Shown one piece after another: positions 19,832-35,371 of a stretch of 64,000 nt of DNA. The notes beneath the pieces are model-generated. The model saw only the letters and a program-made list of their open reading frames with translations. It did no database searches and was not told the DNA's origin. The stretch's first letter is position 1, and the number at the start of each line of letters is the position of its first letter. The translations under genes were made by a program, and so were the position numbers. This DNA is from Marinobacterium sediminicola (GTDB lineage Bacteria; Pseudomonadota; Gammaproteobacteria; Pseudomonadales; Balneatricaceae): positions 3,286,001 to 3,350,000 of the forward strand of contig NZ_CP092123.1 in NCBI RefSeq assembly GCF_022343685.1. Direction: 5' to 3'.

Positions 19832-20089
19832 TTAGGCAGGAACGACGCTCACGTATTTGCGGTTTTTCGGACCCTTGGTCTCGAACTTCACAACGCCATC
19901 AGCGGTTGCGAACAGAGTGTGGTCCTTGCCCAGGCCAACATTGGTGCCAGCGTGGAACTTGGTGCCGCGCTGACGAATCAGGATGTTGCCTGCTGCAACA
20001 GCCTGGCCGCCGAAGCGCTTGACGCCGAGGCGTTTCGATTCTGAGTCGCGTCCGTTACGCGTTGAACCACCAGCCTTCTTATGAGCCAT
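19832..20089 (-). CDS. rpmA: Large ribosomal subunit protein L27
   Basis: L27 reaches the peptidyl transferase centre with its N-terminus. The 85 residues begin [10 protein letters not shown], the typical gammaproteobacterial form that needs no N-terminal cleavage, and contain [19 protein letters not shown]. It follows rplU by 23 bases on the same strand and ends before a terminator. Confidence 0.97.
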
Positions 20090-20112
20090 TCTTCAATCTC
20101 CTATTCGGTTTC

Positions 20113-20424
20113 TCAGGCACTGATGCCAGTGATCTTGACTTCAGTGAACCACTGACGGTGACCCTGACGCTTCATGTGGTGCTTGCGGCGACGGAACTTG
20201 ATGATGGTCACTTTATCGCCACGGCCGTGAGAAACGACTTCAGCAGCCACTTTGGCACCATCTACAACCGGCGCACCAACTTTGATGTCATCGCCATTGC
20301 CGACCAGCAGGACGCGGTCGAATTCGATGCTGGAACCTGCTTCAGCAGCCAGTTTTTCCAGCTTCAGTGTCTGTCCTTCCTGCACACGGTACTGCTTACC
20401 GCCGCTTACGATTACTGCAAACAT
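20113..20424 (-). CDS. rplU: Large ribosomal subunit protein L21
   Basis: L21 binds 23S rRNA in the presence of L20. The 103 residues start Met-Phe-Ala-Val-Ile-Val with GGAG seven bases upstream; a possible start four codons earlier lacks a ribosome site. Typical segments are [10 protein letters not shown] and [10 protein letters not shown]-like [19 protein letters not shown]. It heads the rplU-rpmA pair and has a leader of about 110 nt containing two hairpins. Confidence 0.97.
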
Positions 20425-20482
20425 GCTTTTCTCCAAGGTTAACCTGCCCGGCTACTGGATACGAAACCTACTTCTAATGGCC

Positions 20483-20517
20483 GGGATCCTGAGGATCTCT
20501 GGCACCCTATGGTAGGG
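20483..20517 (-). promoter_or_regulatory. Paired hairpins in the rplU leader (possible L21-type control element)
   Basis: GATCC-TGA-GGATC (20485-20497) and CCCTA-TGG-TAGGG (20505-20517) are perfect inverted repeats seven bases apart in the untranslated leader of rplU. Autogenous L21 leaders are known in other bacteria; whether this is one is a guess. Confidence 0.35.
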
Positions 20518-20546
20518 AGCGTCGGTGGACAGGTTTAAGGCGCGGT

Positions 20547-20576
20547 ATTTTACTGCATTTCCCGACTTTACCGCAA
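20547..20576 (-). promoter_or_regulatory. Probable promoter of rplU-rpmA
   Basis: On the minus strand TTGCGG (20576-20571), an 18-base spacer and TAAAAT (20552-20547) place a start near 20540, giving a leader of about 115 nt. Confidence 0.55.
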
Positions 20577-20635
20577 GCATTTTCACGGTTTTCTGCCCTT
20601 TTCCGACCCTGTACGGCACCGCCAAAGCCCCCGAC

Positions 20636-20664
20636 TTGACACTCTCGGGACCGCCGCCTAGCAT
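20636..20664 (+). promoter_or_regulatory. Sigma-70 promoter of ispB
   Basis: TTGACA (20636-20641), a 17-base spacer and TAGCAT (20659-20664); the expected start near 20671 leaves a 30-nt leader to the ispB ATG. Confidence 0.7.
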
Positions 20665-20700
20665 GCGGCGGGTGTTCAGTCCATATACAGAACCCCGTCC

Positions 20701-21669
20701 ATGCAGCCACACCAGCTAAATCCGGCGATTGAGCCGCAGTTTGATGCCGTTACCGACTATATTCTTAACCACCTGGGCTCCAATGTCCCGCTGGTGGAAA
20801 AGATCGGCCACTACATCGTTTCCGGCGGCGGCAAGCGCCTGCGCCCTCTGCTGGTACTGCTGAGTGCCAATGCCTGTGGCTATAAAGGCGAACAGCACAT
20901 CCCGCTTGCGGCCGTAATCGAATTTATCCACACGGCCACTCTGCTGCATGACGATGTCGTCGACAACTCCGAGCTTCGCCGTGGAAATGCTACCGCCAAT
21001 GCCAAGTGGGGCAATGCGCCCAGCGTTCTGGTCGGCGATTTCCTCTATTCCCGTTCCTTCCAGTTGATGGTCGAGATCGGTCGCATGGAAATCATGCAGG
21101 TGATTTCCAACGCGACGACAGTGATTGCCGAAGGCGAAGTACTGCAGCTGCTGAATCAGCGCAACCCGGATACCACCGAAGAATCCTATATGCAGGTCAT
21201 CCTCGGCAAGACCGCGATGCTGTTCGAGGCGGCAACAGAAGTTGGAGCAATTCTGGCCGACGCGCCCGCCGACCACCGCGAAGCGCTGCGTCTTTACGGC
21301 CGCCATCTGGGCATCGCCTTCCAGATCGTGGATGATCTGATGGATTACCTATCTGACAGCGCGACCATGGGCAAGAATGTTGGTGACGACCTGGCAGAAG
21401 GCAAGGCTACGCTGCCTTTGATTTATGCCATGCGCGTCGGCGACGACGAAGAGCGCAAGCTCATCCGTCATGCCATCCGCGAGGGTGGCCTGAACGATCT
21501 GCAACCGGTGATGGATATCGTCCAGCGCACCGGAGCCATCGACTACACTCGCCAGCAAGCCCAGGCCGAGCTGGACAAAGCCGCCCGAGCACTGGATACC
21601 CTGCCGGCCAGCTCTTTCCGTGACACGCTGATCACGTTGACCGAGCAGGCACTTGGCCGCACCAGCTGA
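20701..21669 (+). CDS. ispB: Long-chain (octaprenyl-type) polyprenyl diphosphate synthase
   Basis: A trans-prenyltransferase that builds the side chain of ubiquinone from farnesyl and isopentenyl diphosphates. The 322 residues contain the first aspartate-rich motif D-D-V-V-D in LLHDDVVDNSELRRG (near 84) and the second D-D-L-M-D in FQIVDDLMDY (near 210), with GGGKRLRPLL near 43. It is divergent from rplU-rpmA, as in E. coli and Pseudomonas, which supports IspB. The product chain length (C40 or C45) cannot be read from sequence. Confidence 0.93.
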   Translation: MQPHQLNPAIEPQFDAVTDYILNHLGSNVPLVEKIGHYIVSGGGKRLRPLLVLLSANACGYKGEQHIPLAAVIEFIHTATLLHDDVVDNSELRRGNATANAKWGNAPSVLVGDFLYSRSFQLMVEIGRMEIMQVISNATTVIAEGEVLQLLNQRNPDTTEESYMQVILGKTAMLFEAATEVGAILADAPADHREALRLYGRHLGIAFQIVDDLMDYLSDSATMGKNVGDDLAEGKATLPLIYAMRVGDDEERKLIRHAIREGGLNDLQPVMDIVQRTGAIDYTRQQAQAELDKAARALDTLPASSFRDTLITLTEQALGRTS

Positions 21670-21675
21670 CCCGAG

Positions 21676-22293
21676 TCACTGACGCGTGAGGTGGTACACC
21701 ACTTCACGCCGCTCATTTTCCACCTCCGCCTGATCCAGACGCACGACGGTAAAACCGGGCTCGAACAGCTGCCGGACTTCAGCCTCAGTGACGGAGAAAG
21801 GGGGGCCTTCGCCACCGGGAAACTCCAGGGTCACCAGCAACATTTCAACCCCTGACGACAGCTGCCTGCGCAGATGGGCAGCGTAGCTGCGCCGCATGGG
21901 TGGTGGCAGCGCGATCAATGCCGCGCGGTCATACACGGCGGCCACTTCACCCCAATGCTCAGCACCCAGCTCGAGGAAATCGGCACACCAGAGCGTGATG
22001 CCGTCGCGCTCTCGTGTATGCCCTTCCGGAACCGCCACAGGCGTTACCTGGGTACCGTGCTCGACAAAGAAGTCGCGACAGGCTAGATCACTGAGCTCGA
22101 CTCCAACCACCGGATGCCCCTGCTCACGCAGCCAAAGCATATCGCTCGACTTTCCACACAGGGGCACCAACACCCGAGCGTCCCCGGAAACGCCCAGACG
22201 GGACCAGTATTGCCGCAGCCAAAGGTTGATATCGGCCTGGTGGAAACCGATACGCCCCTCCTGCCAGCGGGCATGCCAGAATGCATGTTCCAT
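21676..22293 (-). CDS. tpm: Thiopurine S-methyltransferase family protein
   Basis: Bacterial Tpm enzymes methylate thiopurines and also selenium and tellurium oxyanions, using S-adenosylmethionine. The 205 residues start MEHAFWHARWQEGRIGFHQ with GAGGGG upstream, then the SAM-binding VLVPLCGKSSDMLWL (near 45), AVYDRAALIALPP and LVTLEFPGGEGPPFSV. It is convergent with ispB (six bases between stops, no clear terminator) and divergent from fabA. The metalloid role is family knowledge, not shown here. Confidence 0.92.
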   Translation of the reverse strand: MEHAFWHARWQEGRIGFHQADINLWLRQYWSRLGVSGDARVLVPLCGKSSDMLWLREQGHPVVGVELSDLACRDFFVEHGTQVTPVAVPEGHTRERDGITLWCADFLELGAEHWGEVAAVYDRAALIALPPPMRRSYAAHLRRQLSSGVEMLLVTLEFPGGEGPPFSVTEAEVRQLFEPGFTVVRLDQAEVENERREVVYHLTRQ

Positions 22294-22415
22294 CCTTACA
22301 CCCCTCATTAGCCCTATGGATGAGCAAATTACATGACACAGCTCGTGCCTGAAAGGCCGCAAACCGGTATAATCGCCGAAATATTGATGAAATGCCTCTG
22401 GAAATACGGTTTCTT

Positions 22416-22931
22416 ATGACACGACCTTCCTCATTTGAACGCGAAGAGCTGCTGAAGTGCGGCTACGGCGAAATGTTCGGCCCTGGCAATGCGCAGCTTC
22501 CGGTCGGCAACATGCTGATGCTGGATCGCATCATCAACATCAACACCGAAGGTGGTCAGTACGGCAAGGGCGAGATCATTGCCGAACTGGATATCCACCC
22601 CGACCTCTGGTTCTTCGAGTGCCACTTCCCCGGCGATCCGGTGATGCCCGGCTGTCTGGGTCTGGACGCCATGTGGCAGCTGGTCGGATTTTTCCTGGGC
22701 TGGCGTGGCAATGAAGGCCGCGGCCGTGCGCTGGGTTCCGGTGAGGTCAAGTTCACCGGCCAGGTACTGCCTACTGCCAGCAAGGTGACCTACCACATCG
22801 AGCTCAAGCGTGTCATCGAACGCAAGCTGGTGATGGGCATTGCAGATGGCACCGTCGCCGTTGATGGTCGTGTGATCTACACTGCCAAGGACCTGCGCGT
22901 TGGCCTGTTCAAACAGACCGACAGCTTCTGA
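22416..22931 (+). CDS. fabA: 3-hydroxyacyl-ACP dehydratase/isomerase FabA
   Basis: FabA dehydrates 3-hydroxydecanoyl-ACP and isomerises the trans-2 double bond to cis-3, the branch point of anaerobic unsaturated fatty acid synthesis. With the start at ATG 22416 the protein is 171 residues, the family length, and the catalytic pair falls at His70 (FFECHFPGD) and Asp84 ([13 protein letters not shown]). An ATG eight codons upstream is in frame but adds residues absent from relatives. TATAAT at 22368-22373 lies upstream. fabB follows after 74 bases. Confidence 0.97.
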
Positions 22932-22965
22932 GCCTGAACTTCAGGCTCGTTGATCTGCCTATAAT
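22931..22965 (+). promoter_or_regulatory. Palindrome and -10 box between fabA and fabB
   Basis: AGCCTGA-ACT-TCAGGCT (22931-22947) begins at the last base of the fabA stop codon and is followed by TATAAT (22960-22965). It may be an operator or weak attenuator with a second promoter for fabB. No T-run follows, so it is not a normal terminator, and the arms do not match the FabR palindrome I know. Confidence 0.4.
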
Positions 22966-23005
22966 AAGACTGCACATTGTTGATTGATTTGAAGAGAGGC
23001 TACAC

Positions 23006-24223
23006 ATGCGACGCGTCGTAGTGACCGGTATGGGAATCGTATCCTGCCTGGGTAACGACCTGGAAACAGTTCTGGACTCACTGAAGCAGGGCCGCTCCGG
23101 TATCAAGTTTCAGCCGGAATACAAAGAACTCGGCTTCCGCAGCCAGGTGGCCGGCAGCATCGATATCGACCTGGATGCCCTGATCGACCGCAAACTGCGT
23201 CGTTTCATGGGTAATGCATCCGCCTACGCCTACCTGGCGATGAAGCAGGCGATCGAAGATTCAGGTCTGAGCGAAGACCAGGTGTCCAACGTACGTACTG
23301 GCCTGATCGCCGGTTCCGGTGGTGCTTCCTCTGCGGATATCGTCGAGACCGCTGATATCCTGCGCGAAAAGGGCGTGCGTCGTGTAGGCCCCTACCGCGT
23401 AACCCGTACCATGGGCTCTACCGTGTCAGCCTGTCTGGCAACCCCGTTCAAGATCAAGGGCGTGAACTACTCCATCACCTCCGCTTGCGCGACCAGTGCG
23501 CACTGCATCGGTAACGCCATGGAGCAGATCCAGCTGGGCAAGCAGGATGTCATCTTTGCCGGTGGCGGTGAAGAACTGCACTGGTCCCTGAGCGTCATGT
23601 TCGATGCCATGGGTGCACTGTCCAGCAAGTACAATGACACTCCGGAAAAAGCCTCCCGCGCCTACGATGCCAACCGTGACGGCTTCGTCATTGCTGGCGG
23701 TGCCGGCATGCTGGTACTGGAAGAACTGGAGCACGCCAAGGCACGTGGCGCCAAGATCTACGCCGAACTGGTGGGCTACGGCGCCACTTCAGACGGCTAC
23801 GACATGGTGGCTCCGTCCGGTGAAGGCGCGGTTCGCTGCATGCAGCAGGCAATGTCTACCGTTGACGGCAAGATTGACTACATCAACTCCCACGGCACCT
23901 CCACTCCGGCCGGTGACATTCAGGAGCTGAAAGCGATGAAGCAGACCTTTGGCGACGATATGCCGCCGGTCAGCTCCACCAAGTCTCTGACTGGCCACTC
24001 GCTGGGTGCGACTGGCGTTCAGGAAGCGATCTACTCGATCCTGATGCAGCAGAACAACTTCATCTGCGCCTCTGCCAACATCGAAGAGCTGGATCCGGAA
24101 GCCGAAGGCATGCCGGTCGTCACCGAGCGCAAGGACAACGTCGATCTCAAGCGCGTCATGTCCAACAGCTTCGGCTTTGGTGGCACCAACTCCACACTGG
24201 TGTTCGAGAAGTACGAGGGCTAA
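23006..24223 (+). CDS. fabB: 3-oxoacyl-ACP synthase I FabB
   Basis: FabB elongates cis-unsaturated acyl-ACP made by FabA. The 405 residues carry the condensing-enzyme triad: Cys161 in [11 protein letters not shown], and the two His in [11 protein letters not shown] (near 296) and [12 protein letters not shown] (near 331). AGAGAGG precedes the ATG. The immediate fabA-fabB order and the FabB-type sequence (not FabF) indicate the Escherichia/Pseudomonas pathway for unsaturated fatty acids. A bidirectional terminator follows. Confidence 0.97.
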
Positions 24224-24268
24224 GCGATATCCCGCCCAAGGTGGCTCTGCAAGTCAGCAGCCACCCAT

Positions 24269-24297
24269 AAAAAAACCGCTCATGGAGCGGTTTTTTT
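24269..24297. terminator. Bidirectional terminator between fabB and plsC
   Basis: AAAAAAACCGCTC, a three-base loop and GAGCGGTTTTTTT. Runs on both sides suit the convergent fabB and plsC units. Confidence 0.9.
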
Positions 24298-24312
24298 ATG
24301 CCTGCAAAAGAG

Positions 24313-25068
24313 TCAGTCCAGACTCCCCTGGGCACGCATGGTGCTTTCCAGCCAAACCGTCGCAACCTCATGGACTTCCTCCACGCTCTTGCCACGGGTA
24401 TCGATCGCCGGTCCAACAGCCACTTCCACGGTTCCCGGGTACTTGATGAAGGATTTACCGGGCCAGAACAGCCCCGCATTGTGGGCCACAGGTATCATAG
24501 GCACTTCGCTGCTGACCGCCAGCATGGCGCCGCCCTTGTTCCATTTACCCAGTTCACCGGTGGGTACCCGCGTCCCCTGAGGAAAGATCAACAGCGGAAT
24601 GCCATCTGCCAGACGCGCCTTGCCCTGCTCCAGCAACTGCTTAAGCGCGCCTCGGCGCTTGCTACGGTCCAGAGCGATCGGCTTGAGCAGCGCCAGCGCC
24701 CAGCCAAACAAGGGGATGCGTAACAGTTCCTGCTTGAGGACTACCGCTTGAGGACGGATCAGCAACTGAAAATAGAGCGTTTCCCACTCGCTTTGATGAT
24801 TGGCGATGACCACATAGCTGCCAGCTGAGGGCAAGTGCTCGCGCCCTGTCACCTTAACCTTGACGCCGCAGCAAATTCTCAGCCAGGCGATATAGAAATA
24901 GTTGATCAGGGTCAGAAACTTGAAGCGAGCCCGAAACGGCAGCAAAGGCCCCACGATCAGGCAGATGATGGAGAACACCATGGTCACCGGGTAGAAGCCG
25001 GCGTAATACAAAAGTGAACGCAGAAACAGCAGTGGTGTTGCCTTGGACTCAGTCTGGGAGGTTGTCAC
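24313..25068 (-). CDS. plsC: 1-acyl-sn-glycerol-3-phosphate acyltransferase (PlsC family)
   Basis: PlsC-type enzymes acylate lysophosphatidic acid to phosphatidic acid at the inner membrane. The 251-residue protein has hydrophobic segments near 15-60, then the catalytic box N-H-Q-S-E-W-E (an HX4E variant of HX4D, also known in other proteobacterial members) near 95 and F-P-Q-G-T-R near 167. The start is GTG at 25068, one base after the moaD stop, with GGAGG inside the end of moaD, so it is read as part of the moaC-moaD message. Other lysophospholipid acyltransferase specificities are possible. Confidence 0.85.
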   Translation of the reverse strand: MTTSQTESKATPLLFLRSLLYYAGFYPVTMVFSIICLIVGPLLPFRARFKFLTLINYFYIAWLRICCGVKVKVTGREHLPSAGSYVVIANHQSEWETLYFQLLIRPQAVVLKQELLRIPLFGWALALLKPIALDRSKRRGALKQLLEQGKARLADGIPLLIFPQGTRVPTGELGKWNKGGAMLAVSSEVPMIPVAHNAGLFWPGKSFIKYPGTVEVAVGPAIDTRGKSVEEVHEVATVWLESTMRAQGSLD

Positions 25069-25069
25069 C

Positions 25070-25321
25070 TCAGCCTCCTGTTACCGGTGGGAAAAACGCC
25101 ACCTCGTCGTTATCGGATAGAGTGGCATCCAAAGCTGCCACTTCCTGATTGATCGCGCAGATGAGATCGGGGGCTGAAAGCACCTGATGCCAGGTTTCCC
25201 CCCTCAGCTGCACCAGCCGCTCAATCAGCTCGGCCAGAGTGGTCACACCGTCAGGCAAAGCCATCTCCTCTTCATCACAACCCAGCTGCTCACGGATTCG
25301 GGCGAAATAAACCAGTTTCAT
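25070..25321 (-). CDS. moaD: Molybdopterin synthase sulfur-carrier subunit MoaD
   Basis: MoaD carries the thiocarboxylate sulfur used with MoaE to convert cyclic pyranopterin monophosphate to molybdopterin. The 83-residue beta-grasp protein starts [14 protein letters not shown] and ends in the required Gly-Gly (FFPPVTGG). Its ATG shares ATGA with the moaC stop. The partner moaE, usually next, is not in this window; plsC follows one base later. Confidence 0.93.
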
Positions 25322-25803
25322 GGCTGTTCCTCCCGGTGCCAGTCTCCGCTCTTGCCGCCGGTCTTCTCGACCAGCTCGATGCCGCCGATACGCATCCCCT
25401 TGTCCACCGCCTTGCACATGTCATAGAGCGTCAGTGCAGCAATGCTGACAGCGGTCAGGGCCTCCATCTCAACACCGGTCTGACCACTGAGCCGACAGCG
25501 CGCCTCGATACTGACGCGGTTGTGCTCGGGCTCGGGATTCAATTCAACCTTGACCGAGCTGAGCATCAGCGGATGGCACAATGGAATCAGGTCAGGCGTT
25601 TTCTTGGCGGCCTGAATACCGGCAATGCGCGCGACTGCCAGCACGTCCCCCTTGGGATGGCCACCTTCGAGAATCAGCTTCAGGGTTTCCGGCTGCATTT
25701 CGACCCAGCCACACGCCAGCGCTTCGCGCACCGTCACCGCCTTATCGCTGACGTCGACCATACGGGCCTGACCGCGGGCGTCCAGATGGGTCAACTTGCT
25801 CAT
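25318..25803 (-). CDS. moaC: Cyclic pyranopterin monophosphate synthase MoaC
   Basis: MoaC acts with MoaA in the first step of molybdenum cofactor synthesis, rearranging 3',8-cyclo-GTP to cPMP. The 161 residues have the family blocks [28 protein letters not shown] and [19 protein letters not shown] with the conserved DMCKAVDK that includes the catalytic Lys and Asp. Its ATG overlaps the stop of the upstream acyltransferase by four bases (ATGA) and its stop overlaps moaD in the same way. Confidence 0.96.
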
Positions 25804-26921
25804 GAATGCTCCTGTTCAGCCTGCCGCTGATTGATGACGGGATTGGCGTACATCTGCTGCAGGAAAGGTCGAGCTTCAGCGTCGACACTGGCCAGGCGCG
25901 CTTCGAACGCCTGCCGTTGCTCGGCATCGACCTCTTCCCCTGCCGCCGCCAGATTGGTCGGGTGCAGCCGGTAGTTGAGGTGAATCTGACGATCAATCTC
26001 GGCCGCCAACTGTTCGGGCGATTCGAATTCGCCGCTCAACGGGGTTCCAAAGGCAACATGCACAGCCCCCTTGTCGCCAGTAATGCCCCGCACGATGCTG
26101 TTGATATCTTCGAACTCCGACTTCTGGTAACTGCCATGCAGCGCCACGGCCGCCAGCTCCTGCGCCTTGAGAGCATCACAGGGATCCAGTTCATAGGAGA
26201 TGGACACCGGCACAATATTCAGTCGCTCCACCATTTCACTCAGGGAGCGTTGCTTGCGGTGAGACATGTAGAACATCTTCATCAACGCCGGATCCGTCCG
26301 GTCATTGCCATCCTTGGCCCGCCCTTCGCGTTGCGCAATCCAGACCGAGTGCCCCCCGCAGACGCTGTGATCAATATAGGCCGAGAGCTGAGTCAGTGCC
26401 GTCATCATTTCACGCCCCTTGGCAGAGCGGTTGACGATGAAGCTCTTGTTCAGCCGCATAAGATCGGAGACATATGGCTTGCGCAACAGGTTGTCACCAA
26501 TGGCAATACGCACAGTGGACATGCCGCCCTGATAACGCACCCAGTTCACGAAAGCGGGATCCATGGCGATATCACGGTGATTGGACACAAACAGATAGGC
26601 CTCGTTCGAGTCCAGTCGCTCCAGCCCTGAACAGCTCACCCGGGTGGTCGTGCGGGCGATCATCTTCTGCATGTAGCTGGCCACCATCATCTGGAAGCCC
26701 TGTACATCCTCGATATCACCTACACGGGCTGCCACGGCAATGCGCACCAGCGGTCGCAGCAACCAGCCCAGCGGCCCTGAAGCATTTGGAAACTGGTAAC
26801 GCGTCAGGGCCGAAATGCATTCATCATCCCGCACCAGACGCTGCAGGACGGCTTCGACTTCGTTATCTCGATAGGGGCGGATCTCCTGAAAGGGATCTTG
26901 TACCTGGCGTTGTGCATTCAT
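25800..26921 (-). CDS. PlsC/PlsB-like acyltransferase family protein with an HX5D box
   Basis: The 373-residue protein has an acyltransferase core in its middle third: N-H-R-D-I-A-M-D near residues 116-123 in place of the usual N-H-x4-D box, an REGRAKDG segment near 205 that corresponds to the glycerol-phosphate binding block, and [11 protein letters not shown] near 243. It belongs to a group annotated as 1-acylglycerol-3-phosphate acyltransferases in proteobacteria and Bacteroidetes; the true substrate is not known to me. No clear membrane anchor or signal peptide is seen. It lies 83 bases after moeA and overlaps moaC by ATGA, which couples lipid acylation and molybdopterin genes in one message. 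Confidence 0.75.
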
Positions 26922-27004
26922 TCGCGGCTATCAGCCTCTAGCTGCTGAAAAGCACACATTTTACCCTGTTGAGGCGCGCTTTTGCATACCGGCGGCATGC
27001 GCCG

Positions 27005-28201
27005 TCAGCCTGACAGCACACTGAAAGGCAGAAACGCCAATGGCTGCCCCGGCTCAACACAACTGTCTGCCGGCACCCTGACCAGCCCTTCTGCCTTAAG
27101 GCTGTTGCTCAATACCCCTGAACTCTGGTTGCCTTGAGGTACCAGGCGGCCCTCTTCTACCCGCACGCGCAAGAATTCGTCACGACCAATGGGCCTTTGA
27201 CGACTGAATCCGGCGGGCAGCGTCCAACCGGACAAAGGCTTGTACCGCAGCCCCTGAAGCCGCCTCAAAGCCGGCAATGCGAGCAGGTAAAAAGTCACCA
27301 GGCTCGAGGCCGGATTACCCGGCAGCCCAATAAACGGCGTCCCCGCAACATGACCTGCGGCAAAGGGTTTGCCCGGTTTGAGCTTGATGCGCCATATCTG
27401 CAGCGCACCCAAGGCCTCTACCTGATTGCGCACATGATCCTCTTCGCCTACGGAGACCCCACCACTGGAAAGGATCAGGTCACTGTCGGCGGCTGCCTTG
27501 CGCAATACATCTGCCGTGGCTTCTGCCGTATCGACTGCGTGCCAGGTGCTGATCGAAACCACACCGGCCTGCTGCAAAAGCCCGGTGATCAGAAAACGAT
27601 TGGCATCGTAGATTTGCCCCGGCGCCAGCGGCTGACCTGGCTGCACCAGCTCATCGCCAGTGGACAATAGAGCCACCCGAGGGCGTCGATAAACCCTGAC
27701 CCGTTCGATGCCTGCCGATGCCAGTACCCCCATCGCCTGTGCCGAAAGCAGCTCACCTGCCGCCAGCAACGCCTCACCGGCCTGAATATCCTGCCCACGG
27801 GGACGGATATTCTGCAAAGGACGCACACCGGCCGTAAAGCGCACTCCAGTGCCCTCCTCGACCGACTCCTCCTGCATGATCACCGCATTGGCTCCTGCGG
27901 GAATGGGCGCACCGGTGAAGATCCGTGCTGCCGTACCCGGCTCCAATGGCACGGGAGCCGAGCCGGCCGGAACGCGCTGGGAGACCGGCAGGACCGACAC
28001 CGCCTGAAGATCCTCCACCCTGACAGCGTAACCATCCATGCTGCTGTTGGCCTCTGGCGGCACGTCCACATCGGCCACAACCGGCTCGGCCAGAACACGT
28101 CCCCAGGCATCCTTCAGATACAACTCTTCGACTTCTGAAGGCGATGGCATCAGCTCAAGCAGTTGATGAAGCGCTTCCTCGACCGGGATCAACGGACTCA
28201 T
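27005..28201 (-). CDS. moeA: Molybdopterin molybdenumtransferase MoeA
   Basis: MoeA inserts molybdate into adenylated molybdopterin. The 398 residues show the expected domains: N-terminal PEANSSMDGYA (near 45-60), the MogA-like domain with STGDELV and SGGVSVGEEDHV, GLPGNPASSLV near 293, and a C-terminal beta-barrel. It overlaps the moaB stop by ATGA. An 83-base gap separates it from the following acyltransferase. Confidence 0.95.
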   Translation of the reverse strand: MSPLIPVEEALHQLLELMPSPSEVEELYLKDAWGRVLAEPVVADVDVPPEANSSMDGYAVRVEDLQAVSVLPVSQRVPAGSAPVPLEPGTAARIFTGAPIPAGANAVIMQEESVEEGTGVRFTAGVRPLQNIRPRGQDIQAGEALLAAGELLSAQAMGVLASAGIERVRVYRRPRVALLSTGDELVQPGQPLAPGQIYDANRFLITGLLQQAGVVSISTWHAVDTAEATADVLRKAAADSDLILSSGGVSVGEEDHVRNQVEALGALQIWRIKLKPGKPFAAGHVAGTPFIGLPGNPASSLVTFYLLALPALRRLQGLRYKPLSGWTLPAGFSRQRPIGRDEFLRVRVEEGRLVPQGNQSSGVLSNSLKAEGLVRVPADSCVEPGQPLAFLPFSVLSG

Positions 28202-28722
28202 GCACGAGCCTCCCGAGCCGCCTGCAACAGGCCGACGAAGTTACAGGGCTTGAACCGGCTATCCAGCTGCTCAGCCAACAGCTGATCCCAGCCTGTGGCA
28301 CAGGCCCCGGTAGACCCCGGCAGGCAGGCAATCAGAGTACCATTGGCCAGTCCAGCCAAGGCACGTGACTGAATGGTGGAGGTGCCAATTTCACCCTGGG
28401 AGATGCTCCGAAACAGTTCACCGAATCCCTCTACCTGCTTGTCCAGCAAAGGCGTCACCGCTTCGGGAGTAGAATCACGCAGAGCAAATCCCGTCCCCCC
28501 TGTGGTGATCACCACCTGAACACCGGCATCCGCAATCCAGGCTGAGAGCCGTGCACGGATCTGGTAGATGTCATCTGCCACTATCCCCCGATCGGCCAAA
28601 CGGTGACCGGCCTGCTGCAGGCGTGCTACCAACAGATCGCCGGAGCGGTCGGTTTCGGGAGTACGGGTATCGGAGATGGTCAGGACCGCTATATCCAGCG
28701 GTTGCAGTCTGTTGTCGTTCAC
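28198..28722 (-). CDS. moaB: Molybdenum cofactor biosynthesis protein B
   Basis: MoaB/Mog-type protein, thought to adenylate molybdopterin before MoeA. The 174 residues contain the nucleotide-binding ITTGGTGFALRDSTPEAV (near 80-97), the conserved Asp of the family and ALAGLANGTLIACLPGS near 125. Its stop overlaps the moeA ATG; it follows moaA by 35 bases. MoaB and MogA are hard to tell apart, but length and the partner moaA favour MoaB. Confidence 0.9.
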   Translation of the reverse strand: MNDNRLQPLDIAVLTISDTRTPETDRSGDLLVARLQQAGHRLADRGIVADDIYQIRARLSAWIADAGVQVVITTGGTGFALRDSTPEAVTPLLDKQVEGFGELFRSISQGEIGTSTIQSRALAGLANGTLIACLPGSTGACATGWDQLLAEQLDSRFKPCNFVGLLQAAREARA

Positions 28723-28757
28723 CGGCTTTCCTCATCGGTTATCGGATCAACAGGGGC

Positions 28758-29753
28758 TCAGCCCCCGGTCATGTTCATGAAACGCAAAATCTGGGGTTCT
28801 TCATCCAGAGTGAAATGATGGCGCTCAGGCTTGATCTGCATCGCATCGACTATCGCCTGGCGCAACTGTTCCGCATCACAGCCCGGCTGGCGCAGTAGTG
28901 CTCGCAGATCGACGGAATGTTCGTTACCGAGACACAGCAGTAAACGCCCCTCCGCCGTTACCCGCACACGGTTACAGTCGCCACAGAAGTTATGGCTGTG
29001 CGGCGAGATAAAGCCAATACGGCTGTCGCTGTCTGGCATGCGGAAATAACGGGAGGGCCCACCTGTGCGTTCGGCAGTTGGAATCAGGGTATAGTGTTCG
29101 GCCAGTCTGGCCTGGAGACTGTCACTGGAACAGAAGGCTTCAGACCGATCATGCTCACTGATGCGCCCCAGCGGCATCTCCTCAATGAAACTGATATCAA
29201 GCCCCCGAGACCGTACATACTCGACCAGTGCCGGTACTTCATCCTCGTTGCGCCCATGCAACACGACGGTGTTCAGCTTGATACGGGTGAAGCCCGCATC
29301 GCAGGCGGCATCGATCCCGGCCAGCACCTGGTCCAGTCGGCCGTTACGGGTCAGATTGCGAAAACGCTCGGGATCCAGACTATCAAGGCTGATGTTCAGC
29401 CGACTGACGCCCGCCTGGCGCAGCGGCTGAGCAAAACGCTGCAACTGGGAACCGTTGGTGGTCAGGACCAGCTCAACCGGCAATTCTCCCAAGCGCTCGA
29501 TCAGCCAGAGCACATTGCGTCTGACCAGTGGTTCGCCACCCGTCAGCCGAATCTTGCGTACGCCCAGCTCCGTAAATGCCTGCGCCAGCGCCAGCATCTC
29601 CTCCAATGACAGAACCTGCTCACGAGGAAGGAACTGCATCTGCTCACTCATGCAGTAGACACAGCGGAAGTCGCAGCGATCCGTCACTGACAGTCGCAGG
29701 TAGTGGATCTGCCGCCCGAAGCGATCAATTAGGGCTGTATCATTCTGACTCAT
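28758..29753 (-). CDS. moaA: GTP 3',8-cyclase MoaA
   Basis: MoaA is a radical SAM enzyme that starts molybdenum cofactor synthesis from GTP. The 331 residues have the radical SAM cluster at Cys27, Cys31 and Cys34 ([10 protein letters not shown]), GGEPLVRRN near 73, a second cluster in [18 protein letters not shown] and the C-terminal Gly-Gly tail essential for activity. It heads moaA-moaB-moeA and is divergent from the SirB2-like gene. Confidence 0.96.
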
Positions 29754-29883
29754 GATTCAAAAGACCCTGGCCGCCGGTTATAGTTCTGTTCACGGATCGG
29801 CTGCTACACGCCGTGCCTGCGTCTCAGTATATGCACAAAACCCAATTATTGGTTACGGGGATAGACTCACCTTGAATACATAC

Positions 29884-30258
29884 ATGATTCTGAAGCACAG
29901 CCACCTGACAATGGTGGGCCTGAGCATCGCGCTCTTTCTGCTGCGCGCCTTTCTGCTCTACACCTGGCCTCGAGCACTCAATACCCGTTGGCTGAAGGTT
30001 GTACCGCATGTTATTGACACCTTGCTATTGCTCAGCGCGATCGGCCTGATGCTGGTCATTGAACAGTATCCCTTGACCCATCATTGGCTGACAGCCAAGG
30101 TGCTGGGTCTGGTCGCCTATATCGGCTTTGGTACGGTAGCGCTGAAACGGGGACGGAATCTCAAGACGCGCAGCCTCGCATTGATCGCGGCCTTGCTGAG
30201 TCTTGGCTATATTCTGGGGGTTGCCATGACCCATTCGGCAACACTGGGGATGGTGTGA
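29884..30258 (+). CDS. SirB2-family inner membrane protein
   Basis: A 124-residue, very hydrophobic protein with about four membrane segments (GLSIALFLLRAFLLY, VIDTLLLLSAIGLMLVI, LGLVAYIGFGTVAL and the last around SLALIAALLSLGYILGVAMTH), a pattern and sequence typical of SirB2. The function of the family is not established. The start is uncertain: ATG 29884 gives the family N-terminus, TTG 29872 is close by, and neither has a strong ribosome site. It is divergent from moaA and convergent with the RmlD-like gene. Confidence 0.8.
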   Translation: MILKHSHLTMVGLSIALFLLRAFLLYTWPRALNTRWLKVVPHVIDTLLLLSAIGLMLVIEQYPLTHHWLTAKVLGLVAYIGFGTVALKRGRNLKTRSLALIAALLSLGYILGVAMTHSATLGMV

Positions 30259-30281
30259 TCGGCCAGAGAAACGCGGCGAGC

Positions 30282-31193
30282 CTAGAGTTCGCCGTATATT
30301 TCCCTGATGACACGCTGCAACTCACTGCGCCAGGGGCGTTGGCGTATGCCGAAGGTAGAAAGCAGCTTGCGGCATTTGAGCACCGACGAAGCCGGACGCT
30401 GGGCCAGCGCCTGCAGATTGGATGAGGCCACCGGCTGCAGCCGTTCGACTTTCAGCTCTTCGTATTGGCGTGCCGCCGCGAGAATAGCCTCACTGAAACC
30501 ATAACGCGTGGTGATTTCGGCACCGCAATAGTGATAGGTCCCCCAGACATCGATACCGCAGGTCAGCTGACGCAGTATGGCCAGGAGTACACGCGCAACA
30601 TCTTCCGCCGATGTGGGGCAGCCACGGCGATCATCTGCCGCCTCGATAAGGCTGTCGTGGCGCGCCTGCTCCAATGTCCGCAGAAGAAAGTTCTCGCCAC
30701 GGGCACTGAACACCCAGCTGATTCTCAGAATCAGATGCTGAGGCTGAGCCGCCCTGATCGCTTCTTCACCCAGCCATTTGCTACGACCAAAAACGCCCAG
30801 GGGAGAAGCTTCATCCTCTTCACCATAACCACTGGCATAGTGCCCATCGAATACGTAATCGGATGACAGATGAAGCAAAGGGATGCTCAGTGCAGCCGTT
30901 GCCAGCGCGAGATTGTGCGCCCCGTCACGATTAATCGACAATGCCTGATCCTGCTGGCGTTCAGCCGCATCAACACGATTGAAGCCGGCACAGTTGATCA
31001 CATAATCCGGCAGATGTTTCTCCAGCTGTTTGCGGACAGCTGCGGGGTCAGTGATATCCAGCTGACGTCGACCCAGCGCAACAGGCTCAACGCCCGAAGC
31101 TTGCTCCAGCAGTTCGGTCAGTGCGTGACCTACCTGGCCCGCCGCCCCGACGATGAGAACCTTGGCTGAGGTTGTATAAGCGCTCGCTGGCAT
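30282..31193 (-). CDS. RmlD-like sugar-nucleotide reductase with Phe in place of the catalytic Tyr
   Basis: Members of the RmlD family reduce dTDP-4-keto-rhamnose to dTDP-rhamnose. The 303 residues show the NAD(P)-binding G-A-A-G-Q-V-G at 16-22, the INCAGFNRVDAAE block near 66-78 and LSSDYVFDG near 109-117. At the Tyr-x3-Lys site the sequence reads V-F-G-R-S-K-W: Phe135 stands where the proton-donating Tyr is expected, while Lys139 is kept. No other rhamnose genes (rmlA, B, C) lie nearby. It may be an altered reductase or a nucleotide-sugar binding protein; I would not call it RmlD. Confidence 0.75.
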   Translation of the reverse strand: MPASAYTTSAKVLIVGAAGQVGHALTELLEQASGVEPVALGRRQLDITDPAAVRKQLEKHLPDYVINCAGFNRVDAAERQQDQALSINRDGAHNLALATAALSIPLLHLSSDYVFDGHYASGYGEEDEASPLGVFGRSKWLGEEAIRAAQPQHLILRISWVFSARGENFLLRTLEQARHDSLIEAADDRRGCPTSAEDVARVLLAILRQLTCGIDVWGTYHYCGAEITTRYGFSEAILAAARQYEELKVERLQPVASSNLQALAQRPASSVLKCRKLLSTFGIRQRPWRSELQRVIREIYGEL

Positions 31194-31319
31194 ACTGGAA
31201 ATTTTGACCTTAACGACTGAAAAAGGTGACTTTTACGCTGTTGCGGTAAACCCGAGCATACCCCAAAGCATGGCACCGGCACACCTGTCATTGACGAAAA
31301 AATTCACCCATAAAAGTCA

Positions 31320-31346
31320 AAAGCCCCGCAACGAAGGCGGGGCTTT
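31320..31346 (-). terminator. Terminator after ssb
   Basis: AAAGCCCCGC and GCGGGGCTTT form a 10-bp stem; on the minus strand TTTTGACTTTT follows the stem. It separates ssb from the RmlD-like gene. Confidence 0.8.
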
Positions 31347-31367
31347 CAGGCGCAGAAGCAGTGTAGC

Positions 31368-31874
31368 TTAGAACGGGATATCGTCGTCAAAATCATCAAA
31401 GCCAGGCGCCGGCTGCTGGGGAGCCTGCTGCTGCGGCTGCTGCGGCGCCTGTTGACGTCGAGGGGCCTGCTGCTGCGGCTGACCGTATCCCATCGGATCA
31501 GGCTGTGACTGGTAGCCGCCGGCGTCACCTGCGCCACCACGACCGTCGAGCATCTGCATTTCACTGGCAACGATTTCGGTGGTGTAACGATCCTGACCAT
31601 CCTGACCCTGCCATTTGCGAGTACGCAAAGAGCCTTCTACATAGACCTTGGATCCCTTGCGCAGGTATTCACCCGCGATTTCGGCCAGACGGTTAAAGAA
31701 CACCACCCGGTGCCACTCGGTCCTTTCCTGCATCTGACCGGTCTGCTTGTCTTTCCAGCTCTCGCTGGTTGCCAGTGTTACATTGGTAACGGCATTGCCG
31801 GACGGCATGTAGCGCACCTCAGGATCGCCTCCCAGGTTGCCGACCAGAATCACCTTATTGATGCCACGCGCCAT
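31368..31874 (-). CDS. ssb: Single-stranded DNA-binding protein SSB
   Basis: SSB coats single-stranded DNA as a tetramer and recruits repair and replication proteins. The 168 residues start [20 protein letters not shown] with GGGAG upstream; an OB fold fills about 1-110, a Gln/Pro-rich linker about 118-157, and the acidic tip ends in D-D-D-I-P-F, the partner-binding motif. It is divergent from uvrA, as in many gammaproteobacteria. Confidence 0.97.
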
Positions 31875-31990
31875 CAGTTGTCTCCCGTTGTTCGATTGAA
31901 TCTTGCTGCAGCGTCCTGCCGCTTCATTAGTGGTTGAGAATACCACACAGCGCCTTCCTATAGTAAGTCACGCCCATAGCGCAACGGCGG

Positions 31991-32019
31991 TTTAGCCACC
32001 TGCAGCAAACCTCTATAAT
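31991..32019 (+). promoter_or_regulatory. Probable promoter of uvrA
   Basis: A perfect TATAAT (32014-32019) with a weak -35 TTTAGC (31991-31996) at 17 bases. No CTG-N10-CAG LexA box could be found in the ssb-uvrA intergenic region. Confidence 0.5.
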
Positions 32020-32050
32020 GGTTCTTTTTGCCAGTTACAGCGGAGCAGTA

Positions 32051-34873
32051 ATGGACAAGATTCTGGTCAGGGGCGCCCGTACCCACAACCTGAAAAATGT
32101 GGACCTCGATATCCCGCGCGACCAGCTCATCGTGATCACCGGTCTGTCCGGGTCGGGTAAATCCTCACTCGCCTTCGATACCCTTTATGCAGAAGGACAG
32201 CGACGTTACGTCGAATCGTTGTCGACCTATGCGCGCCAGTTTCTGTCGATGATGGAAAAGCCGGATGTGGACCACATCGAGGGTCTGTCACCGGCCATCT
32301 CCATCGAGCAGAAATCCACCTCGCACAATCCCAGATCCACCGTTGGTACCATTACCGAAATTTACGACTATCTGCGCCTGCTGTTTGCCCGTGCCGGTGA
32401 GCCCCGCTGTCCGGATCACGACCTGCCTCTGGCCGCACAGACGGTCAGCCAGATGGTAGACCAGGTACTGGCCCTGCCGGAAGGCAGCAAGGTGATGCTG
32501 TTGGCACCCATTGTCCAGGGCCGTAAGGGTGAACACCTCCATACTCTCAACCAGCTGCGTACTCAGGGATTCGTCCGTGCCCGTATTGATGGGCTGGTGG
32601 TCGACCTGGATGATGCTCCGGCACTGGACAAGAATCGCAAGCATGACATCGAGGTGGTGATTGACCGCATCAAGGTCCGGGATGACCTGCAGACGCGACT
32701 GACCGAGTCCTTCGAAACGGCGCTGGAACTGGCTGACGGGATCGCCAAGGTGGCACCAATGGAAGACAGGCTTGAAGAGATGGTGTTCTCGGCCCGCTTC
32801 GCCTGTCCAACCTGTGGCCACAGCATTCAGGAGCTCGAGCCACGCCTGTTTTCGTTCAACAACCCTCATGGCGCCTGTCCTTCCTGCGATGGACTTGGCG
32901 TACGCCAATTCTTTGACCCCCGAAAGCTGGTACAGGATGCCTCACTGCCCCTGGCACAGGGGGCCATTCGTGGCTGGGACAAACGCAGCCTCTATTACTA
33001 TCAGCAACTACAGGCTGTCGCCGATCATTACGGTTTCGATCTGGATACCCCCTTTGAACAGCTGTCTGACAAGCATCGAAAGGTGATACTGGAAGGTAGC
33101 GGCAATGAAGAGGTCGCCTTCTATTACCGTAATGATCGCGGTGTCCGGGTACAGAAGCTGCACCCGTTTGAAGGCGTCATCAACAATCTGGAACGTCGAT
33201 ACCGGGAAACCGAATCGGAAAGCGTGCGTGAAGATCTGGCCAAGTTCCTGAATATGCAACCCTGCCCGTCCTGCCACGGCACCCGTCTGCGACGCGACGC
33301 GCGTCATGTCTATATCGACGAGCACACTCTGCCGCAGATCGTACGTATGCCGATCGGCCAGGCACAGCAGTACTTCAACACGCTCCATCTGAGTGGCAAA
33401 CAGGGCGAAATTGCAGAGAAGATCCTCAAGGAGATACGGGACCGACTCACCTTCCTCGTCAACGTGGGGCTGGATTACCTGTCACTTGAACGAAGTGCAG
33501 AGACCCTGTCAGGGGGCGAGGCACAGCGTATCCGACTGGCAAGCCAGATCGGTGCCGGACTGGTAGGCGTCATGTACGTGCTCGACGAGCCGTCCATCGG
33601 ACTGCACCAGCGTGACAATGAACGCCTGCTGGAAACCCTGAAACACCTGCGAGATCTGGGCAATACCGTCATTGTGGTGGAGCATGACGAAGATGCCATT
33701 CGCATGGCTGACTATCTGATCGACATTGGCCCCGGCGCCGGCGTGCACGGGGGCCATGTCATTGCTGCCGGCAAGCCGGAGCATATTATGGCCACACCCG
33801 AGTCCATCACTGGCCAGTACCTCAGTGGAGAACGCTCAATCGCCATCCCGAAACAACGCAAGGAGGCTGATCCTGAACAGATGCTGCGATTGATCGGAGC
33901 CACTGGCAATAACCTCCAGGGCGTCGATCTTGAAATCCCGGTGGGATTATTGACCTGCATAACCGGTGTATCCGGTTCGGGCAAGTCCACTCTGATCAAC
34001 AATACCCTCTACCCGGTTGCCGCAACCGAACTGAACCATGCCACCACACTGGATGCGGCCCCACACGAGCGTATTGAAGGTCTGGAGCTGTTCGATAAGG
34101 TGATCGATATTGATCAGAGCCCCATTGGGCGGACGCCTCGGTCAAATCCGGCCACCTACACCGGTATTTTCACCCCCATTCGGGAACTGTTTGCAGGGAC
34201 GAAAGAAGCACGCTCCCGCGGCTACAAACCGGGTCGATTCAGTTTCAACGTAAAGGGTGGTCGATGTGAGGCCTGTCAGGGCGATGGCGTGATCAAGGTC
34301 GAGATGCATTTCCTGCCCGATATCTATGTCCCTTGCGACATCTGCAAAGGCAAACGCTATAACCGGGAAACGCTTGAAGTCACTTACAAGGGCAAAAGTA
34401 TCGACGAAGTGCTCGAAATGACCGTCGAAGATGCACGGGAATTCTTCGATGTGATCCCTGCTCTGGCCCGCCGCCTGCAGACGCTGATTGATGTAGGTCT
34501 GAGCTATATACGACTGGGCCAAGCGGCCACCACACTGTCCGGCGGTGAAGCACAAAGGGTCAAGCTGGCACGGGAACTGAGCAAACGCGATACGGGCAAA
34601 ACACTGTATATCCTCGACGAACCGACAACGGGTCTACACTTCTACGATATCCAGCAGCTGCTCAACGTACTCGACCGACTGCGCGATCACGGCAACACCA
34701 TTGTGGTGATCGAACATAACCTGGACGTGATCAAGACCGCTGACTGGATTGTCGATCTGGGACCGGAAGGTGGCAGCGGGGGTGGCCAGATCATCGCCAA
34801 AGGCACGCCCGAACAGGTGGCCGCCAGCGCAGTCTCGCACACCGGCCGCTTCCTCAAGCCGTTGCTCGGCTAA
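32051..34873 (+). CDS. uvrA: Excinuclease ABC subunit A
   Basis: UvrA finds bulky DNA lesions and loads UvrB in nucleotide excision repair. With the start at ATG 32051 ([14 protein letters not shown]) it has 940 residues, the length of the E. coli protein. Two ABC modules are seen: Walker [10 protein letters not shown] near 32 and GVSGSGKST near 640, signatures [11 protein letters not shown] and [11 protein letters not shown], and zinc modules CPTCGH with CPSCDG and CEACQGDG with CDICKGKRY. The open frame begins 33 bases earlier inside the promoter and was not used. Confidence 0.98.
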
Positions 34874-34923
34874 CAAATCAGGGGCGAATCCTCTCGCCCC
34901 CGATTCAAGTTATCCACAGACAC

Positions 34924-34956
34924 AAAAAAACCCGGGCCTTACGGACCGGGTTTTTT
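34924..34956. terminator. Bidirectional terminator between uvrA and rplQ
   Basis: AAAAAAACCCGG and CCGGGTTTTTT flank a ten-base loop. It closes uvrA on the plus strand and the long ribosomal run on the minus strand. Confidence 0.9.
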
Positions 34957-34975
34957 AATGCTGTCGCAGTAATGA

Positions 34976-35371
34976 TTAATCTTCAGCAGATTCTTCAACT
35001 ACAGCCAGGCCAGCAGGACGATCAACCAGCTCAACGTAAGCCATCGGTGCTTTATCGCCTGCGCGGTAACCGCATTTCAGAATGCGGATATAACCACCCG
35101 GACGAGTCGCGTAACGCGGGCCCAGTTCGTTGAACAGTTTACCAACAGCTTCGTTGCTGCGGGTACGGGAGAACGCCAGACGACGGTTAGCAACCGAGTC
35201 GGTCTTGGCCAGAGTGATCAGCGGCTCAGCAAAGCGGCGCAGTTCTTTTGCTTTAGGCAGAGTAGTCTTGATCAGTTCATGTTCGAACAGAGACACTGCC
35301 ATATTCTTGAACATCGCTTTGCGGTGAGCACTTGTACGATTCAAGTGTCGACCAGATTTACGATGACGCAT
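34976..35371 (-). CDS. rplQ: Large ribosomal subunit protein L17
   Basis: L17 lies at the rim of the peptide exit tunnel. The 131 residues begin Met-Arg-His-Arg-Lys-Ser-Gly-Arg with [15 protein letters not shown], the invariant family start, and end in an acidic tail. It is the last gene of the alpha operon, 38 bases after rpoA, and is followed by the shared terminator. Confidence 0.97.

Follow-up and report, generated by a model that had tools for sequence, protein, structure and literature searches.

Probable old capture of moaC and moaD by a pair of acyltransferase genes in the Marinobacterium family

In a stretch of 64,000 nucleotides from Marinobacterium sediminicola (contig NZ_CP092123.1, positions 3,286,001 to 3,350,000; hereafter the window), the molybdenum (Mo) cofactor genes moaC and moaD lie between two acyltransferase genes, which we denote AT1 and AT2. 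We regard this arrangement as the probable outcome of an old operon capture, with no link between the demands for lipid and for Mo enzymes. A lipid gene pair, consisting of the glycerol-3-phosphate acyltransferase (GPAT)-like AT1 and the PlsC-like AT2 and convergent with fabB-fabA, would have captured moaC and moaD between its genes at or near the base of the Marinobacterium family, on the splitting of an ancestral moaC-moaD-moaE operon beside mnmA and nudJ, where moaE stayed. Split and merged operons are a known kind of event.

As a preliminary description of this DNA had stated, moaA-moaB-moeA is followed by AT1-moaC-moaD-AT2, seven minus-strand genes in all, with AT2 (25068-24313) lying just outside the interval it gave. 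Its account of the junctions was also accurate: exact ATGA overlaps join AT1 to moaC (25803-25800) and moaC to moaD (25321-25318), and the GTG start of AT2 stands one base past the moaD stop, with an AGGAGG ribosome site within the end of moaD. Most likely the four genes are translated together, and this geometry suggests that they share one message and are read as a single translationally coupled unit. Both moaC and moaD encode genuine members of their families. The unit is like the classical moaCDE or moaABCDE operon in its genes and in the order moaC-moaD, and unlike it in the separation of moaE and in having acyltransferase genes directly adjoining moaCD on both sides. The absence of moaE that the description reported is confined to the cluster: on the single 3.55-Mb contig of the genome, a MoaE above its NCBIfam cut-off is encoded at 1701081-1701419, 1.6 Mb from moaC-moaD; the contiguous moaC-moaD-moaE of a moaCDE operon is not present in this genome. 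In the proposed mechanism, moaC and moaD would serve cofactor synthesis together with the MoaE made elsewhere, and AT1 and AT2, judging from their families, would serve phospholipid synthesis.

Conservation of the gene order across the family

The neighbourhood was compared across relatives, as the preliminary description had proposed, in a sample of 57 genomes that included the window genome (G000): 36 from its family (16 genera, G000-G035) and 21 from other families. The family is code f1 of the search database; NCBI places Marinobacterium in the Oceanospirillaceae. AT1 was followed by AT2, directly or with moaC(-moaD) between them, in all 36 family genomes. moaC lay between the two in 29 of these, representing 13 of the 16 genera, and moaD was also there in 27 of the 29. 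Because AT1-moaC(-moaD)-AT2 recurs so widely, the arrangement is more than chance. The seven other family genomes (G002, G006, G007, G012, G016, G020, and G029) had AT1-AT2 without moaCD between them, which argues that the lipid pair is independent of the Mo genes.

Junction spacing was surveyed with start codons picked by homology, so that individual values may be off. AT1 and moaC abutted or overlapped in 21 of 29 genomes and moaC and moaD in 18 of 27 (a count excluding G010 and G019, whose values near -255 are start-choice errors), and the moaD-AT2 gap was no more than 25 bases in 24 of 27. The gap between moeA and AT1, 83 bases in the window, was 65-303 bases in all 17 genomes with an intact moeA directly upstream, so the coupled unit is AT1-moaC-moaD-AT2 without moaA-moaB-moeA. 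The description's coupling of lipid genes to Mo genes thus holds for moaC-moaD and fails for the upstream trio. In G005 (L125, 8194-8778), moaA and moeA are represented upstream of AT1 only by their two ends and moaB only by its start, and AT1-moaC-moaD-AT2 is intact; with only these fragments left, the trio does not appear to be part of the stable unit. The order AT1-moaC-moaD-AT2 was not described in the titles or abstract openings of our literature search results, and it may still be in print.

Origin of moaCD and the moaE left behind

In the window genome, moaE is flanked by a NUDIX gene on one side and by rluE on the other. We call the NUDIX gene nudJ and the gene adjoining it mnmA, both provisionally; the NUDIX protein had no NCBIfam match at 1e-10, and the best match of the rluE product was the NCBIfam RluE model, below its cut-off. 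Every one of the 29 genomes whose moaC separates AT1 from AT2 had a lone moaE beside mnmA (in G014 a contig end truncates it). Of the 21 genomes from other families, 17 had moaC next to moaE, two had them apart (G041 and G054), and two had neither gene (G037 and G053). Seven of these 17 blocks adjoined mnmA (G036, G039, G044, G046, G051, G052, and G056), and in five of the seven rluE bordered the opposite end (G044, G046, G051, G052, and G056); in the mnmA-site blocks of G036 and G044, moaD was not detected between moaC and moaE. Because the block is found there in seven different families, the mnmA site can be taken as the ancestral location of moaC-moaD-moaE. From these observed gene orders we infer that the ancestral operon was split, with moaCD moving into the lipid pair and moaE staying in place.

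Dating of the move by MoaC and MoaE gene trees (the latter leaving out the truncated G014 gene) was tried and gave too little signal. In an AT1 tree with nine named loci, Maribrevibacterium harenarium (L054) fell near genera g6, g14, g2, and g9 with weak support, and its placement therefore does not decide whether the AT1-AT2 pair is older than the insertion. Vibrio/Tolumonas-type AT1 rows fell inside the family part of this tree, so it is not a species tree. In L054, AT1 and AT2 are adjacent with no moaCD, followed by what by eye is a convergent fabB-fabA.

Loss of Mo genes and a probable deletion scar

Where a lineage lost Mo cofactor synthesis, moaCD would have been deleted and AT1-AT2 would have remained coupled, in one case with a probable scar. 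Both moaC and moaE were missing from the same five of the 57 genomes, three of which are the Marinobacterium genomes G002, G006, and G007. In these three, no moaE was present between nudJ and rluE, no PF00384 enzyme was found, and AT1 and AT2 were adjacent (gaps of 24, -1, and -1, respectively). G002 paired with the window genome in a concatenated tree of 45 rows and G006/G007 stood at the base of the genus; these separate positions imply two losses. It should be noted that this tree contains AT1 and AT2 and is therefore not independent of the locus, and that the outside row G054 falls within the family.

In G002, AT1 and AT2 are separated by an in-frame minicistron of 13 codons. Its start coincides with that of moaC in relatives and overlaps the AT1 stop, and its end resembles moaD and is followed by one base and then the GTG of AT2. 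Against a profile of the moaD 3' end, the minicistron scored 9.0, which was reached by 3 of 211,180 sequence windows counting itself; among the 7,511 windows that precede a stop triplet, it alone reached its score. The scar was first spotted by inspecting junctions and then scored, the profile test being designed afterwards. The minicistron is a probable diverged remnant of the moaC start joined to the moaD end, which would mean that moaCD was once present and was deleted without loss of the coupling from AT1 to AT2. The junctions of G006 and G007 carried no such scar.

Mo enzymes and alternative explanations

Mo enzymes were surveyed in 14 genomes by PF00384 only, to the exclusion of other types such as the xanthine dehydrogenase and sulfite oxidase families. 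The count per genome ranged from 0 to 6, and among Marinobacterium genomes bearing moaCD it was 0 in G001, 1 in the window genome, 1 in G003, 2 in G005, and 3 in G004. The single PF00384 enzyme of the window genome clusters with a nitrate-ABC-transporter-like permease, mobA-like and nirB-like genes, and a second moeA-moaB-moaA set, and no membrane subunit was noted in this cluster. The best NCBIfam matches of the enzyme (Fdh-alpha, NasC, and NasA) and those of the neighbours tested were below their cut-offs, so the label of assimilatory nitrate reductase rests on context. The second moeA, moaB, and moaA share 55, 71, and 71% identity with the copies in the window (L231:7283-10060, about 2748280-2751060 of the genome).

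These results bear on the suggestion in the preliminary description that demand for phospholipid and for Mo enzymes is linked, for example in making membrane-bound nitrate or formate enzymes. On that reading, membrane Mo enzymes require both phospholipid and cofactor, and the two syntheses are expressed together for this reason. The tight coupling retained in 29 of 36 family genomes speaks for such a link, which we nevertheless consider very unlikely: AT1-AT2 survive without moaCD in seven family genomes, in three of which neither moaC, moaE, nor a PF00384 enzyme was found; PF00384 counts vary widely, and the unit is kept in G001, where none was found; the one PF00384 enzyme of the window genome sits in a nitrate-assimilation-like cluster; and both moaE and a further moaA/moaB/moeA set are found at other places in the genome. 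The description had offered chance rearrangement as its other choice. A rearrangement is supported by our results, whereas a recent accident confined to one strain, with moaE freshly lost, has practically nothing to recommend it: nothing was found in its favour, the arrangement is old and family-wide, and moaE is present. The finding that was to refute the description, a strain-unique order with moaE freshly lost, is accordingly false on both points.

Alternatively to a single relocation, moaCD (or a horizontally acquired moaCD) may have entered the AT1-AT2 pair several times independently, the old moaCD being lost. This is improbable, if less so than a demand link. The MoaC rows of the unit type are not united in the MoaC tree, where a one-clade test is borderline (p 0.06-0.07), and in genus g2 the junctions are spaced differently (7-23 bases for AT1-moaC and 22-40 bases for moaD-AT2). 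Against repeated insertion stand the identical place and gene order in 13 genera and the presence of moaE at the mnmA site in all 29 genomes.

A single old capture remains our preferred reading, and a number of observations weigh against it. The mnmA site holds only seven of the 17 outside moaC-moaE blocks, and the other 10 lie elsewhere. A single relocation is not apparent in the gene trees, whose one-clade tests, with p 0.41 for the family MoaE and p 0.07 for MoaC (0.06 for unit-type MoaC alone; G044 left out), neither establish nor clearly reject it. G012 and G020 (genera g6 and g14) and G016 and G029 (g10) have moaCDE clusters elsewhere, and g6 and g14 may never have carried the insertion; the concatenated tree needs at least four state changes within the family. 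Two g15 genomes (G021/L141 and G033/L153) have no moaD between AT1 and AT2, and it was not searched for elsewhere. The G002 scar has diverged, scoring 9.0 compared with 41-45 for intact moaD ends and sharing 4 of 9 residues, and the score of its first 18 bases alone was reached by 62 of 211,180 windows. Finally, the fact that the order has been conserved for so long may point to an advantage of expressing the genes together. In the capture model, the arrangement would instead be kept since the frames overlap and breakage would disturb the reading relay.

The locus offers a traceable case of operon splitting, with a probable source site, a gene that stayed behind, an insertion site, and a probable deletion scar that preserves the reading relay. 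It also warns that gene neighbourhood may mislead on function even where genes overlap and their order is family-wide.

The two acyltransferases

PlsB carries an HX4D motif I. In AT1, motif I read HX5D in all 51 aligned rows. AT1 resembles PlsB and mitochondrial GPATs in PF01553, a weak PlsB match, and its predicted fold, and is set apart from them by length, score, and motif: it scored 31.9 bits with the PlsB model TIGR03703 (cut-off 618.5), too low for assignment to PlsB, and has 373 residues against the 799 positions of that model, half the usual PlsB length. The AlphaFold model of AT1 (mean predicted local distance difference test score 87.4) was closest to human GPAT1 (8e4y; Z 20.3 over 295 residues, root-mean-square deviation 4.5). 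PlsC (Z 13.0), plastid GPATs (12.0-12.1), and 7zkq_T, a complex I assembly chain (10.4), came next, followed by PatA (7.5-8.9) and a tRNA kinase (5.7), which places the predicted structure of AT1 in the GPAT fold.

The distinction between HX4D and HX5D in acyltransferase motif I is drawn in PMC4207751, and HX5D, with five residues between the His and the Asp, is reported there and in PMC8319176 for fungal GPATs and SalA. AT1 shares this spacing and is likened to these enzymes by motif only; in the published account, SalA is set against PlsC and OlsA. AT2 resembles PlsC, the 1-acylglycerol-3-phosphate acyltransferase, in exceeding the PF01553 cut-off, and differs from it in scoring below the TIGR00530 cut-off and in its motif I, HQSEWE, where Glu replaces Asp; a later motif is FPQGTR.

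The AT1 gene, counted at 147 bits or more, was present in 51 of the 57 relatives and 3 of 140 class genomes. The tally leaves out G037 and G053, whose matches lie in frames of 817-835 residues that are also the PlsB matches of those genomes, and G163 (25 bits). Replacement of PlsB/PlsY by AT1 was not supported by co-occurrence, with PlsB counted at 100 bits or more. Among the relatives, AT1 was found in 11 of 12 genomes lacking both PlsB and PlsY and in 40 of 45 others (Fisher p 0.63), a test that shows no association because AT1 is so common there; the sole double-negative without AT1 was G046, 81% complete. Among the class genomes, the figures were 1 of 9 (three of the nine below 1 Mb) and 2 of 131 (p 0.18). 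Since the window genome encodes PlsY, AT1 is not necessarily its sole GPAT. We suggest, tentatively and with more doubt than confidence, that AT1 represents an unrecognised class of compact bacterial HX5D GPAT, which in the absence of PlsB and PlsY provides lysophosphatidic acid and is partnered by AT2, and that AT1-AT2 is a two-gene phosphatidic-acid module that captured moaCD. AT1 may be relevant to identifying the enzyme that initiates phospholipid synthesis in genomes in which no PlsB and no PlsY was found.

The AT1 match of G040 (L158) contains one in-frame TAG, possibly marking a pseudogene or a sequencing error. An open reading frame of about 710 residues near AT1 outside the family resembled, by eye, a DinG-type helicase and was dropped.

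Features of the locus

Table 1 Features of the AT1-moaC-moaD-AT2 locus and its neighbours, in window positions.
Feature	Position	Strand	Family evidence
moaA (GTP 3',8-cyclase)	28758..29753	-	TIGR02666 383.8 bits, over cut-off
moaB	28198..28722	-	TIGR02667 260.3 bits, over cut-off
moeA	27005..28201	-	Pfam MoeA_N, MoCF_biosynth, MoeA_C over cut-off; NCBIfam MoeA below equivalog cut-off
moeA-AT1 gap, 83 bases, edge of coupled unit	26922..27004	-	
AT1, GPAT-like acyltransferase, HX5D motif (NHRDIAMDP), 373 residues	25800..26921	-	PF01553 37.4 bits, over cut-off; weak PlsB match
moaC	25318..25803	-	TIGR00581 226.8 bits, over cut-off
moaD	25070..25321	-	TIGR01682 78.5 bits, over cut-off
AT2, PlsC-like acyltransferase, GTG start	24313..25068	-	PF01553 85.6 bits; TIGR00530 87.8, below 102.95
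fabB, convergent with AT2	23006..24223	+	NF005935 748 bits
fabA, upstream of fabB	22392..22931	+	TIGR01749 305 bits

A promoter and terminator scan did no better than shuffled sequences, with 2 promoter-like sites (shuffles 1.8) and 2 terminator-like sites (shuffles 4.8). Positions 20000-35000 of the window gave no Rfam match and therefore contain no Mo-cofactor riboswitch at the gathering threshold. Upstream of the coupled unit, moaB and moeA overlap by 4 bases (28201-28198). On the other side, a fabB match fell within the fetched regions of 29 of the 36 family genomes, not always adjoining AT2.

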